From Eubacteriales bacterium OttesenSCG-928-K08 (lineage in GTDB: Bacteria > Bacillota > Clostridia > Christensenellales > CAG-138): a stretch of DNA of 32,942 bases. Made by a program: the position numbers and the translations under genes. Below are positions 2 to 11,167 of the stretch, piece by piece. How positions within the stretch are numbered: the first letter of the stretch is position 1; each line of letters starts with the position of its first letter. The notes beneath the pieces were generated by a model that searched no databases, had not been told where the DNA came from, and saw only the letters and a list, made by a program, of their open reading frames with translations. Location: assembly GCA_030266105.1 (NCBI GenBank), contig JAJDHH010000016.1:1-32942 (forward strand). The letters are read 5' to 3'.

Positions 2-1078
2 GTTAAGCCCGGTGAAAAGATTGTGATTATCACAAGCGATATCACAAGGCCTATGCCAACATATGCCGTTATACCTGCGCTGCTTGATGAATTGTATGCA
101 GCGGGCATAGATAAAAAAGACATAACGCTTGTGTTTGCGCTTGGCGTTCACCGCAAACATACCGAGGCCGAAATGAAAAAGCTCGCGGGTGAGCGGGCGT
201 GGAACGAAATCACCTGCGTTGATGGTGATGTTAACGACACCGTGCACGTGGGTGTAACAAAACGCGGCACACCTGTGGATGTTGTGCGTCTTGTGGCGCA
301 GGCGGACAGGCGAATTTGCCTTGGTAACATTGAGTACCACTATTTTGCCGGTTTTTCCGGCGGCGGCAAGGCGATCATGCCGGGCGTATCCACCCGCGCA
401 GCCATACAGAACAACCACAGCAGGATGGTCGATCAAAATGCCTGCGCCGGTAAACTCGATGGAAACCCCGTGCGCGAGGATATCGAAGAGGCCGCGCAGA
501 TGGTTGGCGTCGATTTTATACTCAACGTTGTTTTAAATGAAAAAAAAGAAATCATACGTGCTGTTGCGGGTGATTGTGTGCTAGCCCACCGTGAGGGCTG
601 CAAATTTCTCGATACGCTCTATAAAAAGTCAATTAATGAAAGAGCGGATATCGTGCTTGTTTCCCAGGGTGGAGCGCCGAAGGATCTCAACCTGTATCAA
701 ACGCAAAAAGCGCTCGATAATGCAAAGCACGCCGTTAAAAAAGGCGGAGTGATCGTGCTGATCGGTTCCTGCAAGGAAGGCCTTGGCGAGGATGTTTTTG
801 AAAAATGGATGACGGCATCGCCAAGCGCACATTCGATGATTGAGCGCATTGAGCGCGATTTTGAGCTTGGCGGCCACAAGGCGGCGGCCATTGCGATGGT
901 GCTTGAAAACGCAGACATTTACCTCGTGAGCGAAATGGAGCCCGGGTTTGTTAAGAGCATATTTCTCACGCCGTTTGAAACCGCGCAGAAAGCGTTTGAT
1001 GCCGCGATCAAAAAGCTTGGCCCCAACGCAACAGTGCTCGCAATGCCATATGGCGGGTCCACATTGCCAAAGGCATAG
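2..1078 (+). CDS. LarA-family nickel-pincer racemase/epimerase, 5' partial
   Basis: The reading frame is open to the left edge, so the N-terminus is missing; an internal GTG at 23 is not a convincing start. Family: LarA (lactate racemase; DUF2088), which binds the nickel pincer nucleotide cofactor and racemises or epimerises 2-hydroxyacids by hydride transfer. Numbering from the GTG at 23, the LarA active-site pattern is visible: GVHRKH (His43/46), EYHYFAGFSGGGK (His106 and the cofactor lysine Lys116) and NNHSRM (His132). The 10- and 26-residue spacings from His106 match His174/Lys184/His200 of the Lactobacillus enzyme as I recall it. The family covers several substrates, so lactate is not certain. 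No larB, larC or larE cofactor-maturation gene is visible, though upstream genes lie outside the window. Confidence 0.85.
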   Translation, partial: VKPGEKIVIITSDITRPMPTYAVIPALLDELYAAGIDKKDITLVFALGVHRKHTEAEMKKLAGERAWNEITCVDGDVNDTVHVGVTKRGTPVDVVRLVAQADRRICLGNIEYHYFAGFSGGGKAIMPGVSTRAAIQNNHSRMVDQNACAGKLDGNPVREDIEEAAQMVGVDFILNVVLNEKKEIIRAVAGDCVLAHREGCKFLDTLYKKSINERADIVLVSQGGAPKDLNLYQTQKALDNAKHAVKKGGVIVLIGSCKEGLGEDVFEKWMTASPSAHSMIERIERDFELGGHKAAAIAMVLENADIYLVSEMEPGFVKSIFLTPFETAQKAFDAAIKKLGPNATVLAMPYGGSTLPKA

Positions 1079-1098
1079 TCGTGAAATATTATCTTTTA

Positions 1099-1138
1099 AT
1101 AAAACAACAGCCGGTCATTCGACCGGCTGTTGTTTTAT
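1099..1138. terminator. Bidirectional intrinsic terminator
   Basis: A perfect 18-bp stem (1099-1116 with 1121-1138) with a four-base ATTC loop. The core is CAGCCGGTC/GACCGGCTG with A and T runs at the outer ends on both strands. It lies between the convergent racemase (+) and P-type ATPase (-) genes and can stop both. Confidence 0.9.
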
Positions 1139-1158
1139 GATTCAAGTACGTTCTTATT

Positions 1159-3102
1159 TTATGTTGCGCTGCTTGCGCTGACACGGGTGGGAGCGGCCGG
1201 AACCGCGGCCTGAGTGCTCTTCTTATATTTGTAGCCCAGCAGGCGTGAGGAGTTGAGCACCACGAATATGGAGGAAGCATTATGCACAACCGCCGCCATG
1301 ATCGGGTTCAAAAGACCCATGCCGGAAACCACAACACCAATTACGTTAACCAGGAACGCAAACACTATTATGTTTTGCCTGATAATGCTGTAGGTTGCCT
1401 TGCACAGCGCAAAGTTTGTGGGCAGCATGTTCACATTATCGGACATCAAGGCGATGCTCGCCGCCTCGATTGCAACATCCGTGCCCGCGGCGCCCATTGC
1501 GATGCCAACATCGGCAAGCACGAGTGCAGGCGCATCGTTTACGCCATCGCCAACCATGGCGACCTTTTCGCCCGCGGCCTGGAGCTTTTTGATCTCCTCT
1601 AGTTTTTCATCGGGCAGCATATTCGCACGATATTCCGTGATGCCTGCTTCCGCGCAGATCGCTTTTGCTGTGGCTTCGTTATCACCCGTCAGCATTATGA
1701 TGCGCTTAATTCCAATGTTGCGCAGCTCGTTCATTGTGTTTTTAACGCCCTCACGGATAACGTCCGCAACAGCAACGCCGCCAATGGCAACGCCATTCTT
1801 TACGATAACCATTGTTGTTCTGCCCAGATTTTCCTGGGTTTTGAGGTATTCCTCAGCCTCGGTGGATTTTGTTGAAAGCTCCGGCAGCACCTTGCTGTTT
1901 GACACTTCGAATGTATCGCCCTCGTGTTTTACAACAACACCACGGCCAAAGAGCATATCAAACTCGGCATTGGGAACATCGGCAACATCAAACAGTCCCT
2001 TTTCCTTAACATATAGCATCACCGCTTTTGCAATGGGGTGCTGTGAGTTCTTTTCGGCAGTTGCTGCGCTAAAGAGAACATCCTTTTCGGATTGACCTTT
2101 AAACACCGTAAAATCAACAACCTTGGGTTCGCCTTTTGTGATTGTGCCTGTTTTATCAAAGCAGATCGCTGTGACCTTGGCGCTGTTTTCAATCGCAACG
2201 CCACCCTTTATGAGCACGCCACGCTTTGCGGCGTTACCCACCGCTGCGACGACCGCAGTCGGCGTTGCGAGCACCAGCGCACACGGGCAGGCGATAACCA
2301 GAATTGTCATAACGCGCATAATATCGTTGAACATAAACCATACCACAGCGCAGATGATCAATATCGCCGGCAGGAAGAATTTTGCAAACTTATCGGCCGC
2401 CTTTTGTGCGTTACCTTTATTGTTCTGGGCCATGTGAACGGTTTTAATGATTTTGCCAAGCACCGTTTCGCCGCCCAGCTTTTCCGTTTTAACTTCGATA
2501 ACGCCATTTTCGTTAAGCGAACCAACAAACACCTGATCGTCGGTTGTTTTATCAACAGGCATCGATTCGCCCGTGATTGACGCTTCGTTGATTGCAGCGT
2601 GGCCGGTTGTGATCACTCCATCCACAGGGATGCGCTCCCCTGCAATAACCTGAACCATGTCGCCCTTTCTAAGCTGCTTAATCGGCACGACCTTGTATTC
2701 ACCATCAACCAGCTTGCGGCATGTGGTGGGCACAAGCTTAACAAGCTCACGCACAGCGTTTTTGGTTTTTTCCATGGTCAGCTCTTCGAGGAATTCGCCA
2801 AATATCATCATGAACGCTACAATTGCGCCCGAAAGATATTCGCCCACATAAGTGGTGCCAATAAGCGCGAGAACCACGAGCATGCCCGCTGTGACCTTTT
2901 TTAGCTCAATTGTGGCTTCAAGTGTGGATTTTATAACAAAGCTGCCCGCAACAAGCAATGGCACGATTGAAAACTGGAATGGCAATGTGCCGGGCCACAC
3001 AAAGTCAAAAAGGGCGCCCGCAATAATCAAAACCAAAATTACTGCCGGGAAAATGAAAATCTTGAACTTTAGCATTGGGTTCCTGGATTTTTCTGAGCTC
3101 AT
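1159..3102 (-). CDS. P1B-type heavy-metal translocating ATPase, probably Cu(I) or another soft/transition metal exporter
   Basis: A 647-residue membrane pump that would use ATP to move a transition metal ion across the cytoplasmic membrane. Visible motifs: TGES 178-181 (actuator), CPC 272-274 in the metal-binding membrane helix, DKTGT 316-320 with phosphorylated Asp316, the P1B-specific HP at 355-356, and GDGVNDAP 518-525. There is no N-terminal CxxC metal-binding domain; the protein starts almost directly with membrane helices. Start ATG is preceded by AAAGGAG. The upstream CsoR-family gene and the dyad at 3162-3180 suggest metal-induced expression. Oddity: the last two helices read VN and HNASS instead of the YN and MxxSS typical of Cu(I) pumps (P1B-1), and lack the DxG of Zn pumps. 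The class is therefore certain but the metal is not. Confidence 0.93.
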   Translation of the reverse strand: MSSEKSRNPMLKFKIFIFPAVILVLIIAGALFDFVWPGTLPFQFSIVPLLVAGSFVIKSTLEATIELKKVTAGMLVVLALIGTTYVGEYLSGAIVAFMMIFGEFLEELTMEKTKNAVRELVKLVPTTCRKLVDGEYKVVPIKQLRKGDMVQVIAGERIPVDGVITTGHAAINEASITGESMPVDKTTDDQVFVGSLNENGVIEVKTEKLGGETVLGKIIKTVHMAQNNKGNAQKAADKFAKFFLPAILIICAVVWFMFNDIMRVMTILVIACPCALVLATPTAVVAAVGNAAKRGVLIKGGVAIENSAKVTAICFDKTGTITKGEPKVVDFTVFKGQSEKDVLFSAATAEKNSQHPIAKAVMLYVKEKGLFDVADVPNAEFDMLFGRGVVVKHEGDTFEVSNSKVLPELSTKSTEAEEYLKTQENLGRTTMVIVKNGVAIGGVAVADVIREGVKNTMNELRNIGIKRIIMLTGDNEATAKAICAEAGITEYRANMLPDEKLEEIKKLQAAGEKVAMVGDGVNDAPALVLADVGIAMGAAGTDVAIEAASIALMSDNVNMLPTNFALCKATYSIIRQNIIVFAFLVNVIGVVVSGMGLLNPIMAAVVHNASSIFVVLNSSRLLGYKYKKSTQAAVPAAPTRVSASSAT

Positions 3103-3161
3103 ATTCTTTCTCCTTTTATAAATATGGAACGATGTGTAAGCCGCGCATGTGCATAGCGGGT

Positions 3162-3180
3162 TATCCCCATCCGGGGGATA
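3162..3180. promoter_or_regulatory. Probable CsoR operator upstream of the ATPase
   Basis: Inverted repeat TATCCCC-N5-GGGGATA. The A/T-flanked C-tract/G-tract dyad is the general form of CsoR-family operators. On the minus strand it begins five bases after the -10 box, so a bound repressor would cover the transcription start. Confidence 0.7.
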
Positions 3181-3185
3181 GGTTG

Positions 3186-3214
3186 AGTATAAAACCGTAT
3201 GTCGCTTTTGTCAA
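3186..3214 (-). promoter_or_regulatory. Sigma-A-type promoter of the ATPase gene
   Basis: Read on the minus strand: TTGACA (3214-3209), 17-base spacer, TATACT (3191-3186). Near-consensus spacing and sequence, followed directly by the G/C-tract dyad. Confidence 0.8.
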
Positions 3215-3230
3215 TATGATTACCAAAATA

Positions 3231-3259
3231 AAAAACGAGGCGCAGTTTTTTTGCGCCTC
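3231..3259 (-). terminator. Intrinsic terminator of the csoR-like gene
   Basis: Stem GAGGCGCA/TGCGCCTC (3237-3244 with 3252-3259), 7-base loop, followed on the minus strand by GTTTTTTATTTT. It separates the regulator gene from the ATPase promoter although both are transcribed the same way, so the two are probably separate transcripts. Confidence 0.85.
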
Positions 3260-3295
3260 AAAATATCGTTAAAAGCTATTCTATTTTTGTGGTTG

Positions 3296-3592
3296 TTACC
3301 TTACAAATTTATCGATCGCATCAGTGAGCTCATCGAGCACCTTTTGCTTTTCAGCTTCATCGCTATGCGAGGCCTCAACCACACAATGCTTGATATGATC
3401 ATCCAGCAGCAGCTTGCCCACATTATTAAGCGCGGCGCGAACGGCGGCGATTTGAATAAGCACCTCCGCGCAATCCCTATCGTCCTCTATCATTGTTTTA
3501 ACTGAAGACGCATGACCCACAATTCTGGACATGCGGTTGAGTAGATTTTTTTTTGCAACTTCCGAATGATGGTGGTGCGGATGTGTCGCCAT
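3296..3592 (-). CDS. CsoR-family (DUF156) metal-sensing transcriptional repressor
   Basis: 98 residues from the ATG at 3592, chosen because GGGAGG lies six bases upstream; the longer reading to 3646 has no good binding site. All-helical CsoR/RcnR fold expected, acting as a dimer or tetramer on DNA. The ligand pattern visible is Cys in DRDC, His in LDDH, and Cys four residues later (HIKHC). This C-H-xxx-C set is that of Cu(I)-sensing CsoR; Ni/Co-sensing RcnR has His at the last position. The N-terminus carries an unusual HPHHHH run that may add metal ligands. The neighbouring P1B ATPase and Cys/His peptide are the likely targets. The spacing to the oppositely oriented peptide gene at 3862 gives a divergent control region. 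Confidence 0.88.
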   Translation of the reverse strand: MATHPHHHHSEVAKKNLLNRMSRIVGHASSVKTMIEDDRDCAEVLIQIAAVRAALNNVGKLLLDDHIKHCVVEASHSDEAEKQKVLDELTDAIDKFVR

Positions 3593-3712: not shown

Positions 3713-3741
3713 TTGACAGCGGTATTTTCGTTGTGTAAAAT
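3713..3741 (+). promoter_or_regulatory. Sigma-A-type promoter of the Cys/His peptide gene
   Basis: TTGACA (3713-3718), 17-base spacer, TAAAAT (3736-3741). Transcription would start near 3748, placing the whole triple repeat at 3757-3827 in the leader. Same architecture as the ATPase promoter. Confidence 0.75.
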
Positions 3742-3756
3742 GAGTTTATGAATAAC

Positions 3757-3827
3757 CCCACTGGGAGGATGCGATCTTAAGACCCATCGGGGGGGATGCG
3801 ATATTTCATCCCAGCGGGACGGATGCG
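3757..3827 (+). repeat. Three CCC-N3-GGG...GGATGCG repeat units in a leader; candidate regulator sites
   Basis: Units at 3757-3773, 3783-3800 and 3810-3827, at 26-27 base intervals. Each has a short dyad CCC-N3-GGG (N3 = ACT, ATC, AGC) followed by a variable base or G run and GGATGCG. The dyad resembles the ATPase operator at 3162-3180 (C-tract, A/T-rich centre, G-tract, then GAT). The second unit could also pair GGGATG 3793-3798 with CATCCC 3807-3812 as an RNA hairpin. They may be DNA sites for the CsoR-like protein or an RNA leader structure. Confidence 0.6.
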
Positions 3828-3861
3828 GAAATGCCGCAAATTTTAATTAGGAGGCACCAAC

Positions 3862-3990
3862 ATGCACGAAGGTAAACATGGAATTCTTGATGGCGTTGAA
3901 GACATGGACGATCTGTTTGGATCGGACGAGGACGAAGAAGCAGAACATGCTCATGGGGATGGCTGCGGCTGCGGCCATGACCACGGCTAA
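3862..3990 (+). CDS. Small acidic peptide with Cys/His metal-binding tail
   Basis: 42 residues: ATG at 3862 with TAGGAGG upstream, TAA at 3988. A strong promoter (3713-3741) precedes it and a stem-loop follows. The middle is very acidic (an 11-residue stretch with eight Asp/Glu around residues 22-29). The tail reads HAHGDGCGCGHDHG, giving two Cys and four His in 14 residues, plus two His near the N-terminus. Such a tail is expected to bind Cu, Ni or Zn; the CGCG core recalls the metal-binding N-terminus of HypB-type proteins. No signal peptide or membrane segment, so a cytoplasmic metal buffer or chaperone for the neighbouring ATPase is plausible. I do not recognise the family; function is inferred from composition and context. 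Confidence 0.75.
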   Translation: MHEGKHGILDGVEDMDDLFGSDEDEEAEHAHGDGCGCGHDHG

Positions 3991-4127: not shown

Positions 4128-5225
4128 ATGAATAATAGCACACCGGCATTATTGCGGACTTTGCTCTTAATGGATACCCGGGAAGGTTCCCCCGAAATTC
4201 AAAAGGCAATCGAATTTGTGGCCGACATTTTGTCGGAGTGTGGCGTTCGATATGAGATCGTTTGCCCTGTTAAGTGTGCGCCCAGCATAGTTGCGCATAT
4301 ACCGGGCAAAAGCGGCAAAAGTATAGTTTTGTGCGCCCACATGGACACCGCGGATTTTGATAAAACGCTGTGGCATGTTGATCCATTAGGCGCTGTGTGT
4401 TTGAAAGGCAAAATGTTCGGCAGAGGTGCGCTTGATTGCAAAAGCCTGTGCGCGGTGTGGCTAAGCTTACTCACGCAAATTGCCAATAGCAAGATTGTGC
4501 CAAAGCACGGAATTACGCTCCTTATCACTTCGGATGAGGAAAGCGGCGGTGAATGGGGCGCAAAATGGGCGCTCAACAACACTCAGCTGCTTAATGATGT
4601 TATGCTTGTGCTAAGCGAAGGCGGCGGCTACCCTGTTTACCAGAACTCATCGCTTCTTTACACGGTTCAGTGCGGCGAGCGGGGCAGGATCAAAATTCAA
4701 GGTGAATATGATCCGCCTAAAATAAGCCGCCAGGAGCTTATGCAGCAGGGCGTAAGCGCAGGGTTTTACTCGGAAAAAACGGTGGAATACTCAAAGCATG
4801 CGCCGGGAAAAGCGCGGCACATTCCCCTAAAAGAGTTTGATGCGGTTCAATGTGAAAGGGACAATAAGTACACAATAATCTACAAGCTGCCCTTTTTAGA
4901 TAACTATAAGCTGGAAATCGACCCAAGCCGCATTATAGAAAGCGTTGAATGCGGAAAGACAAATGGTGCAATAAAGTTTTTGCCCACATTGCAGCGGGCG
5001 CTAACAAAACACATGGATGCTCAGCTGCTGCCAATCATCACGCCGGGTTACAGCGACAACCGGCACTTTAGAAACGCGGGTATACCCGTGCTGGGATTTT
5101 TCCCACTTTCAATAGATAACGGCATTGCCGGTATTCACGGCAATGATGAATATATCACCCAACAAAGCCTGGATTTGGCCGAAGCGGTTTTATCGGAGAT
5201 TGTAAACACTCTCGCATTTCAATAA
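4128..5225 (+). CDS. M20-family zinc metallopeptidase / deacylase
   Basis: 365 residues, soluble, no signal peptide. The M20 fold is indicated by AHMDT (His71, Asp73), a metal-bridging Asp103 in GRGALDCKS, and DEES with general base Glu137 and ligand Glu138. A C-terminal GYSDNRHFRNAGIPVLGF segment followed by IHGNDEY gives the final His ligand of the ArgE/DapE/CPG2 group. These enzymes hydrolyse peptide or N-acyl amide bonds with two zinc ions. Substrate cannot be told from sequence: no arginine or lysine biosynthesis gene is adjacent. The start ATG has only a modest site (GGGGCAGG) upstream. It is likely a single-gene transcript. Confidence 0.85.
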   Translation: MNNSTPALLRTLLLMDTREGSPEIQKAIEFVADILSECGVRYEIVCPVKCAPSIVAHIPGKSGKSIVLCAHMDTADFDKTLWHVDPLGAVCLKGKMFGRGALDCKSLCAVWLSLLTQIANSKIVPKHGITLLITSDEESGGEWGAKWALNNTQLLNDVMLVLSEGGGYPVYQNSSLLYTVQCGERGRIKIQGEYDPPKISRQELMQQGVSAGFYSEKTVEYSKHAPGKARHIPLKEFDAVQCERDNKYTIIYKLPFLDNYKLEIDPSRIIESVECGKTNGAIKFLPTLQRALTKHMDAQLLPIITPGYSDNRHFRNAGIPVLGFFPLSIDNGIAGIHGNDEYITQQSLDLAEAVLSEIVNTLAFQ

Positions 5226-5377: not shown

Positions 5378-5680
5378 GTGAAAAACACAAAAAAGCTTAT
5401 CGTTTTGTCCCTTGCCGTTATGCTGGTGCTTTCATGCGGTGTTGCAAGCGCCACGAGCGGGCAAATTGTTGGCGCTGAAGCAGGAGCGACATTCTCGCTC
5501 ACATCCACCATTCCGATTAAAACTGATACCGATCACGATGATGATGGTGGCGTTTTGGATCATTCCACCGAAAACGCAGGCGGCGCCATGGCTTGGATAC
5601 TCATTGGCTCTATGATTGGCCTCGCCGCCATACAGATGTTTGTTGGCAAGGCGCGCGAAAACAGCAAAAAGAAAAAATAG
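5378..5680 (+). CDS. Small exported single-pass membrane protein, unknown function
   Basis: 100 residues from a GTG start with GAGGAGGA eight bases upstream. N-terminal signal peptide (KNTKK then a hydrophobic run to VASA, likely signal peptidase I cleavage after residue 25 or so), a short extracytoplasmic stretch with an acidic HDDDG patch, and a C-terminal hydrophobic helix (about residues 70-89) ending in a Lys-rich tail (KKKK). Expected topology: outside domain of about 45 residues anchored by one helix. The Cys in VLSCG is not a good lipobox. It sits alone between an M20 peptidase and a LysR gene and has its own terminator. I do not recognise the family. Confidence 0.7.
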   Translation: MKNTKKLIVLSLAVMLVLSCGVASATSGQIVGAEAGATFSLTSTIPIKTDTDHDDDGGVLDHSTENAGGAMAWILIGSMIGLAAIQMFVGKARENSKKKK

Positions 5681-10111: not shown

Positions 10112-10732
10112 TTATTTGGAGAACATCTGGAAGAGCTCCATCAGCTTTGAAAAGCTGTTGCTCTGATTTGTGTTGTTGTTGCAGCTTGAGCTTGTGTTGC
10201 TGTTGCAGTTTGTGTTGCCCGGAAGCTGTACGTTTGGGCAGGAGTTCCCGGCATTTGTGCAATCGTTAGTTGCGCAATCGCCAGTTACACATTCAGAGCC
10301 ATTGCAATCGACTGTTTGGCAATCGATCGTATCGCAGTTGTTTGTTTCGCAATCCGTTCCGTCGCAATCGCTTACCGAACAATCGACCGTGGTGCAGCTA
10401 TTGTTGGGTGTGTTGCAGTTAATGGAAGAATCGTTTGTTTGCTCATTTTTAATGCCCAGCAGCTGTGAAAGCATATTCGCGTTTTGTTCGCAGAGCACTC
10501 CGCTATCCACAAAGCTTTGCAGCGAGCCGCTGTTTACATTTGTTGAGGGCGGACAATTGCTGTTGGAGGATGATGTTGAGCAATTTTTGTTCTGCGCAAG
10601 CAGCATGTTAATGAAATTTGTGCCGGAGCTTGCTTGATTGTTTGATGCGGCAAGCGCCGGAACGCTCAGGGCAAATACAAGCACAAATGCGCTGGCAACG
10701 GCAAAGATAATACGAAACTTTCTATTCATCAT
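10112..10732 (-). CDS. Secreted Cys-rich protein with ten Cys at five-residue spacing
   Basis: 206 residues from the ATG at 10732, chosen because AGGAGGT lies upstream and the signal peptide follows directly; a longer reading to 10849 would put 39 polar residues before it. Signal peptide: MMNRKFR, a hydrophobic run, and VPALA (cleavage near residue 28). The mature protein has 17 Cys and is rich in Asn, Ser and Thr. From Cys113 to Cys158 there is a Cys at every fifth position (113, 118, 123 ... 158), usually preceded by Asp or Asn: VDCSVSDCDGTDC and so on. The C-terminus ends in a short amphipathic segment (FSKLMELFQMF). Period five with xDCxx resembles a pentapeptide-repeat helix with Cys at the core position, or a metal/disulfide ladder. 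Family not recognised. It lies next to spore protein genes, so a spore-coat or envelope role is possible but unproven. Confidence 0.72.
   Translation of the reverse strand: MMNRKFRIIFAVASAFVLVFALSVPALAASNNQASSGTNFINMLLAQNKNCSTSSSNSNCPPSTNVNSGSLQSFVDSGVLCEQNANMLSQLLGIKNEQTNDSSINCNTPNNSCTTVDCSVSDCDGTDCETNNCDTIDCQTVDCNGSECVTGDCATNDCTNAGNSCPNVQLPGNTNCNSNTSSSCNNNTNQSNSFSKLMELFQMFSK
10259..10396 (-). repeat. 15-bp coding repeat giving the Cys pentapeptide ladder
   Basis: About nine degenerate 15-base units; on the plus strand a GCAATC/GCAGTT-like core recurs every 15 bases, for example GCAATCGACTGTTTG then GCAATCGATCGTATC. It encodes the xDCxx units spanning residues 113-158 of the secreted protein. 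Confidence 0.8.
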
Positions 10733-11167
10733 TAAAAATGACCTCCTGGTTTTTTTGTGTGGCCGTTTCTCTCGACCCATGCATGAGTATACAGTGCATT
10801 CATGGCAAGACTGTGTAATGAATATTAACAAACACTCATTTTGCCGCACAATATTTGGTTCAAAAAGTTCAAATAGTGCAGCGTTTCTTGGATTTTCCGC
10901 TTAATTTCCCGGGCAATAAAACTATTTAAGGATAACAAACGATCGATTGCGCGGTTATACAAAAAAATGAAACATTATCCATTATTTCAAAATGTTTTTC
11001 GATGAATTTTGTCCACTCCAACAAAGCATCCTAATTATATACATGAATGAAAAATGATTGTTTTTTGGAACCATAATTTTCATATATGGATAACAATAGA
11101 TTCCAGTCATAGATTTTTTGCACCGGGACAGATTAATAGCACAGCAACATGAAAGGAGGAAACTTTA
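10733..11167. other. A/T-rich intergenic region between divergent genes
   Basis: 435 bases with no supportable gene. It must hold the promoters of the Cys-rich protein (-) and of the first SASP (+). I see AGGAGG sites at both ends but no sigma-A box pair for the SASP gene, as expected if a sporulation sigma factor is used, and no clear sigma-G box pair either. A weak A/T-rich dyad ATGAAAA...TTTTCAT lies around 11047-11092. Confidence 0.5.

Follow-up and report, generated by a model that had tools for sequence, protein, structure and literature searches.

Gene content of the locus

The genes described here lie near one end of a 32.9-kb stretch of DNA, which was analysed as a whole and is referred to below as the window. 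They encode a P1B-type ATPase and a CsoR-family repressor on the minus strand, followed on the plus strand by a 42-residue peptide and an M20-family hydrolase. The features are as follows.

1159–3102, minus strand: P1B-type metal ATPase, P1B6-like and without an HMA domain, with CPC and HNASS motifs
3161–3181, no strand: putative operator of the ATPase gene, the dyad TATCCCCCGGATGGGGATA
3214–3186, minus strand: ATPase promoter TTGACA-17-TATACT, with the same dyad lying behind it
3296–3592, minus strand: InrS-like CsoR/RcnR-family repressor, 98 aa (PF02583), with C41-H66-C70 as X-Y-Z
3713–3741, plus strand: predicted sigma-70-type promoter of the peptide gene (TTGACA 3713–3718, 17 nt, TAAAAT 3736–3741)
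3752–3772, no strand: unit 1, candidate operator for a CsoR-family repressor, just behind the −10 box
3779–3799, no strand: unit 2, a weaker operator-like copy, 27-bp repeat, ninth match in the matrix scan
3808–3826, no strand: unit 3, a degenerate copy, 27-bp repeat, of doubtful operator status
3824–3838, plus strand: short hairpin followed by AATTTTAATT, weakly terminator-like
3849–3854, plus strand: ribosome-binding site AGGAGG, 7 nt 5' of the peptide ATG
3862–3990, plus strand: peptide gene, 42 aa, comprising a head (residues 1–20) and an acidic tail
4128–5225, plus strand: M20-family hydrolase (PF01546), a frequent member of the module

The peptide gene runs from an ATG at 3862 to a TAA at 3990 (42 codons) and its product is MHEGKHGILDGVEDMDDLFGSDEDEEAEHAHGDGCGCGHDHG. 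The first-pass annotation had placed a 42-residue frame with a promoter and an AGGAGG site at these positions, adjoining a CsoR-family gene and a P1B ATPase gene. All of this is borne out by the ORF itself, the promoter matching the consensus at 11 of 12 positions, the 7-nt spacing of the ribosome site and the match of the repressor to PF02583 (E 1.7e-28). The head of the peptide features an HExxH-like arrangement of H2 and H6, and the acidic tail contains four His and two Cys residues and ends in GDGCGCGHDHG. Searches of Pfam and NCBIfam with the peptide identified no model covering it. Structure prediction suggests that the peptide is disordered, and a confident structure was not obtained; with a pLDDT of 56 for the model, structure prediction gives docking no support.

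Three further ORFs of the window were recorded. Positions 23–1078 encode a LarA-family protein, truncated where the contig starts; its gene lies immediately upstream of that for the ATPase and faces it. LarA proper is a nickel enzyme. A small protein of 100 aa, secreted or located in the membrane, is encoded at 5378–5680, downstream of the M20 gene, and is weakly similar (33% over 60 aa) to a small protein encoded upstream of the peptide in one of the relatives described below (L025). The minus-strand ORF at 10112–10849 encodes a protein that looks secreted and contains a repeated Cys-rich stretch (CxTxDCxxxxCxxxxC-like) with Asn/Ser-rich flanks.

The peptide family and its partner ATPase

Homologues were sampled by scanning genome contigs with the window ATPase, which yielded eight close relatives (L025–L032) with 58–69% identity. 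Two are Oscillospiraceae MAGs, one is a Gracilibacteraceae MAG, one is a MAG labelled Spirochaetes, and the remaining four, two Intestinibacter bartlettii genomes and two records labelled Clostridium sp., form one family group. The clade was thus sampled via similarity to the window ATPase, and few independent lineages of it are known. A hunt for short homologues beside P1B ATPases had been proposed as a check, and eight of these eight relatives carry a short frame beside or near the ATPase gene, starting with MHEG[KH]HG[IL][LF]D[GD]. Across the nine sequences (window and relatives), 11 of the 20 head residues are invariant, and the hydrophobic and acidic positions of the head are fixed. Comparison of the head codons of the window with those of L027 identified 13 synonymous differences in 20 codons and one non-synonymous difference, and in all pairs the differences fall mainly at third positions, the pattern of purifying selection on a protein. 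Together with its presence in all eight genomes with a close ATPase, this comparison shows that the 3862–3990 frame is a real gene, as had been claimed for it. Genes of this length readily escape annotation, and the module could then be taken for a lone pump and repressor.

The tail varies freely in length and residues among the nine members, unlike the near-fixed head. Tails are mostly composed of His and Asp, with His, Asp and Cys present in most members; L025 and the Intestinibacter group carry long His-Asp runs, and L028 carries the tail ENCNCGKKDE, which lacks His. A single-sequence query identified no peptide homologue in 103 genomes of the window's own family. Searching the class and the relatives' families by alignment returned no members beyond the set found through the ATPase (one match, G401, is the genome of L028). 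The viral contigs searched gave no match, and the plasmids searched contained only ATPases of less than 60% identity. No description of the peptide family was found in the literature searched, the coverage of which was incomplete.

A survey of 382 genomes from the class identified a single further ATPase belonging to this clade (64% identity, in the genome of L028), and the peptide is present there. The next ten ATPases exhibit 38–41% identity, and none of the ten has the peptide within flanks of approximately 1.5 kb. The proposal that the peptide belongs with the pump is upheld by this comparison, since the peptide lies by every close ATPase relative found and is absent by the next-nearest ATPases. 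The gene order is variable. The peptide gene is directly 5' of the ATPase gene in L025, L026 and L029–L032, follows it in L027, and is separated from it by an M20 gene in L028 (ATPase, M20, peptide); in the window it is located beyond csoR from the ATPase gene and on the opposite strand. Preservation of the pairing despite these rearrangements argues for a functional link between peptide and ATPase. Counterparts of the M20 gene are found in L027 and L030, with similar frames in L026 and L028. The result is an unnamed small-protein family in which every member found accompanies an ATPase of one P1B6-like clade; P1B6-like ATPases are a poorly characterised class of pumps.

A tail that is free to vary in length and residues is what would be expected of a buffer, and this freedom, with the predicted disorder of the peptide, is consistent with an inducible metal sink of metallothionein-like role that is co-regulated with the ATPase and never touches it. 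Such a role on its own is unlikely, however, as it leaves unexplained both the invariant 20-residue head with its fixed positions and the strict pairing with one ATPase clade. A role of the peptide as an accessory of the pump accommodates the pairing, and two known kinds of accessory were compared with it.

CsoR-copA-copZ modules combine a CsoR-family repressor with a P1B ATPase and a small protein that binds metal, all under one control, and the module of the window has the same three-part composition. It differs in that the signatures of its regulator and of its pump argue against copper. CopZ is also a folded HMA domain with an MxCxxC motif, whereas the peptide has no such motif, no Pfam match and no confident fold; a CopZ-type copper chaperone was ruled out for lack of the HMA fold and of MxCxxC. 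In Mycobacterium tuberculosis, PacL1 (DUF1490) has been proposed as a scavenger or metallochaperone for the pump CtpC (PMC9374683). Like the peptide, PacL1 is small and is encoded together with a P1B6-like ATPase of the CPC/HN kind, and it ends in a His/Asp metal-binding motif; a candidate motif of this kind can be recognised at the C-terminus of most peptide members, and the ATPase is adjacent in all. PacL1 differs from the 42-aa peptide in having a transmembrane segment and Glu/Ala repeats, both absent from the nine sequences inspected, and the head motif of the peptide is its own. None of the nine members matched the DUF1490 or DUF6110 models of Pfam at E values up to 1. Since the defining features of PacL are lacking, the peptide is not filed under PacL despite the apparently similar working.

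Repressor, pump and probable metal

The repressor (3296–3592) scores 99.3 bits against PF02583 (cut-off 22.8), which places it in the CsoR/RcnR (DUF156) family. Among solved structures it is closest to the nickel sensor InrS (5fmn), at 88.6 bits, compared with 62.0 bits and lower for copper CsoR proteins. The A-position is occupied by Asp40, so the second-shell Tyr of copper CsoR is absent; the B-position Glu is present in 'DELTDAI', and the N-terminus is His-rich (HPHHHH). The fingerprint of InrS consists of Cys-His-Cys ligands, absence of the A-position Tyr, a B-position Glu and a His-rich N-terminus (PMC4235346), and by alignment the repressor possesses all of these features. In Synechocystis, InrS is a CsoR/RcnR-family repressor that controls the exporter NrsD (PMC4235346, PMC4284471). 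The two systems share a repressor with C-H-C ligands and a His-rich N-terminus, and NrsD has a His-rich tail; NrsD, however, is an MFS permease with the tail attached, whereas the window encodes a P1B ATPase and a separate tailed peptide.

The ATPase contains the motifs IACPCAL and VVHNASS, that is, CPC in TM4 and HN in TM6, which are P1B6-like features and are also present in those ATPase relatives whose ends are available. Cu pumps carry an MxxSS motif. The pair of CPC and HN has been used to call the zinc exporter CtpC P1B6-like (PMC9374683). In L025, a gene for CbiQ, the T component of a cobalt ECF transporter, lies directly 3' of the ATPase gene, so part of an importer and an exporter seem to share an operon. 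In L028, a cation-diffusion-facilitator-like gene adjoins csoR.

The first-pass annotation had proposed a gel shift with Cu(I). Copper is less likely in view of the proximity of the repressor to InrS, the missing A-position Tyr and the P1B6-like CPC/HN ATPase. In a copper system the repressor would be a true CsoR, the ATPase would pump Cu(I) and the peptide would bind Cu, and several observations are compatible with such a system: CPC occurs in Cu pumps too, the Cu model TIGR01511 scores above its cut-off for the ATPase, and the C-H-C triad is common to Cu(I) CsoR (PMC4235346). This explanation is nevertheless regarded as distinctly improbable, since the repressor is nearer to InrS than to any copper CsoR and has no A-position Tyr, the ATPase has HN in place of MxxSS, TIGR01512 (Cd family) outscores TIGR01511, and the peptide tails are mostly His/Asp. 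Since several metals are bound by InrS in vitro (PMC4235346), sequence can only make one metal more probable than another. Our best guess is Ni(II), followed by Zn(II) or Co(II), with Cu the least likely.

The L025 locus (347–3545) belongs to a termite-gut Oscillospiraceae MAG, in which the genes for the peptide and the ATPase are located between a small membrane protein and cbiQ.

Leader repeats, operators and proposed mechanism

The leader of the peptide gene contains CCC-N3-GGG cores beginning at 3757, 3783 and 3810, and GGATGCG at 3767, 3794 and 3821 in steps of exactly 27 bp. The extended pattern CCC-N3-GGG-N1-2-GGAT has three sites in the 32.9 kb, all of them in this leader, and three such units did not arise in any of 20,000 dinucleotide shuffles of the leader sequence; the repeats are therefore not due to chance, and their earlier description as three regularly spaced units holds. 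The pattern CCC-N3-GGG-N-GGATGCG was rejected as a family-conserved leader, as it matches in 16 of 101 genomes in unrelated contexts and without the triple arrangement.

In L026 and L029–L032, a promoter of the TTGACA-17-TAAAAT type is also found upstream of the peptide gene, with a G/C dyad directly behind its −10 box (GTATCCCCCCTGGGGGGATAC in L026 and AATAACCCCCCATAGGGGATATAA in L030, for example). The ATPase promoter of the window has its dyad at the equivalent position, and 5' of the ATPase gene of L028 the sequence CTCCCCACCGGGAGGATAGGATATTAAG closely matches unit 1 of the window with its flank, ACCCCACTGGGAGGATGCGATCTTAAG. A matrix was built from the five L026 and L029–L032 sites only and used to scan both strands of the 33-kb window. 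Unit 1 ranked first and the ATPase site at 3161–3181 second. Unit 2 was the ninth match, with a score of 10.6 compared with 16.9 for unit 1, which is level with background, and unit 3 was missing from the ten best matches of every matrix scan. In 1.83 Mb of the genome (59% complete) the operator pattern has three matches, two of which are unit 1 and the ATPase site; the third (C29:23439) lies within a long coding frame and was taken as chance.

Comparison thus shows a putative operator sequence common to the peptide leader and the ATPase promoter. Type 2 CsoR operators consist of two short G/C tracts with 2–4 bases between them and an outer AT-rich inverted repeat (PMC3902906). The ATPase site, a dyad whose ends are TAT/ATA, fits this layout; in unit 1 the tracts are accompanied by a partial outer repeat, and units 2 and 3 lack the outer repeat. 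Family, position and type of dyad suggest that the 3296–3592 repressor binds this operator. The resemblance of the leader units to the ATPase operator, noted in the first pass, falls from unit 1 (strong) through unit 2 (partial) to unit 3 (weak). The accompanying suggestion of up to three repressor sites in the early transcribed region stands for unit 1, which is very probably an operator; unit 2 may be a weaker one, and unit 3 is doubtful, being a decayed copy or serving something else. Those relatives that have the operator carry a single site. An operator of this type was not found in L025 or L027, and the surroundings of the peptide gene in L025–L027 showed no csoR-family gene, so the regulation is not universal. 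The operator is recognisable across several Clostridia and apparently amplified in one genome.

The predicted transcription start precedes all three units, and a small hairpin with T-rich sequence after it overlaps unit 3, so the tandem units might act in RNA, as hairpins or an attenuator of the 5' leader, and not as DNA operators. This is very unlikely. The leader folds no better than its shuffles (z −0.78), sites like the 3824–3838 hairpin with AATTTTAATT are no commoner than in shuffles, and no Rfam match was obtained for the window or the eight relatives at gathering thresholds, a lax limit giving chance-level matches only. The ATPase promoter also carries the same dyad, as do relatives whose downstream RNA is quite different, and across genomes only the DNA-dyad part is common.

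In the preferred reading, the peptide is small and soluble and serves a Ni/Zn/Co-type pump as a metal-binding accessory, subject to the same repression as the pump; as a whole we consider this model reasonably likely. The module would comprise the InrS-like repressor, the peptide, the P1B6-like ATPase lacking an N-terminal HMA domain and, usually, the M20 hydrolase. Rising metal, most likely Ni(II) with Zn(II) and Co(II) as alternatives, would bind the Cys-His-Cys site of the repressor, which would then come off the operators directly behind the two −10 boxes, and the peptide and the ATPase would be produced together. The disordered acidic His/Cys tail would buffer metal, and the near-invariant head would recognise a partner, most likely the ATPase. 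In the window the peptide operator appears to be amplified, with one good and one or two weaker copies in 27-bp steps, and the additional copies may tighten repression. The small gene, its pairing with the pump and the shared operator are thus retained from the earlier interpretation, and the triple operator and copper are revised; the peptide probably works with the pump under the same metal-sensing repressor, catching nickel or zinc rather than copper. More tentatively, the peptide could be a detached, trans-acting metal-binding domain that loads or switches on the HMA-less ATPase, with a docking head and an interchangeable tail that sets metal capacity or preference. A fixed head and a free tail would allow a clean test of metal delivery to an HMA-less pump.

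The leader also includes a leaderless-looking frame of 10 codons (3748–3777, MNNPTGRMRS) that begins at the predicted transcription start. The frame from the ATG at 3748 was considered as a leader reading frame but lacks a ribosome site; since one 27-bp step corresponds to nine codons, G-x-M-R recurs in one frame.
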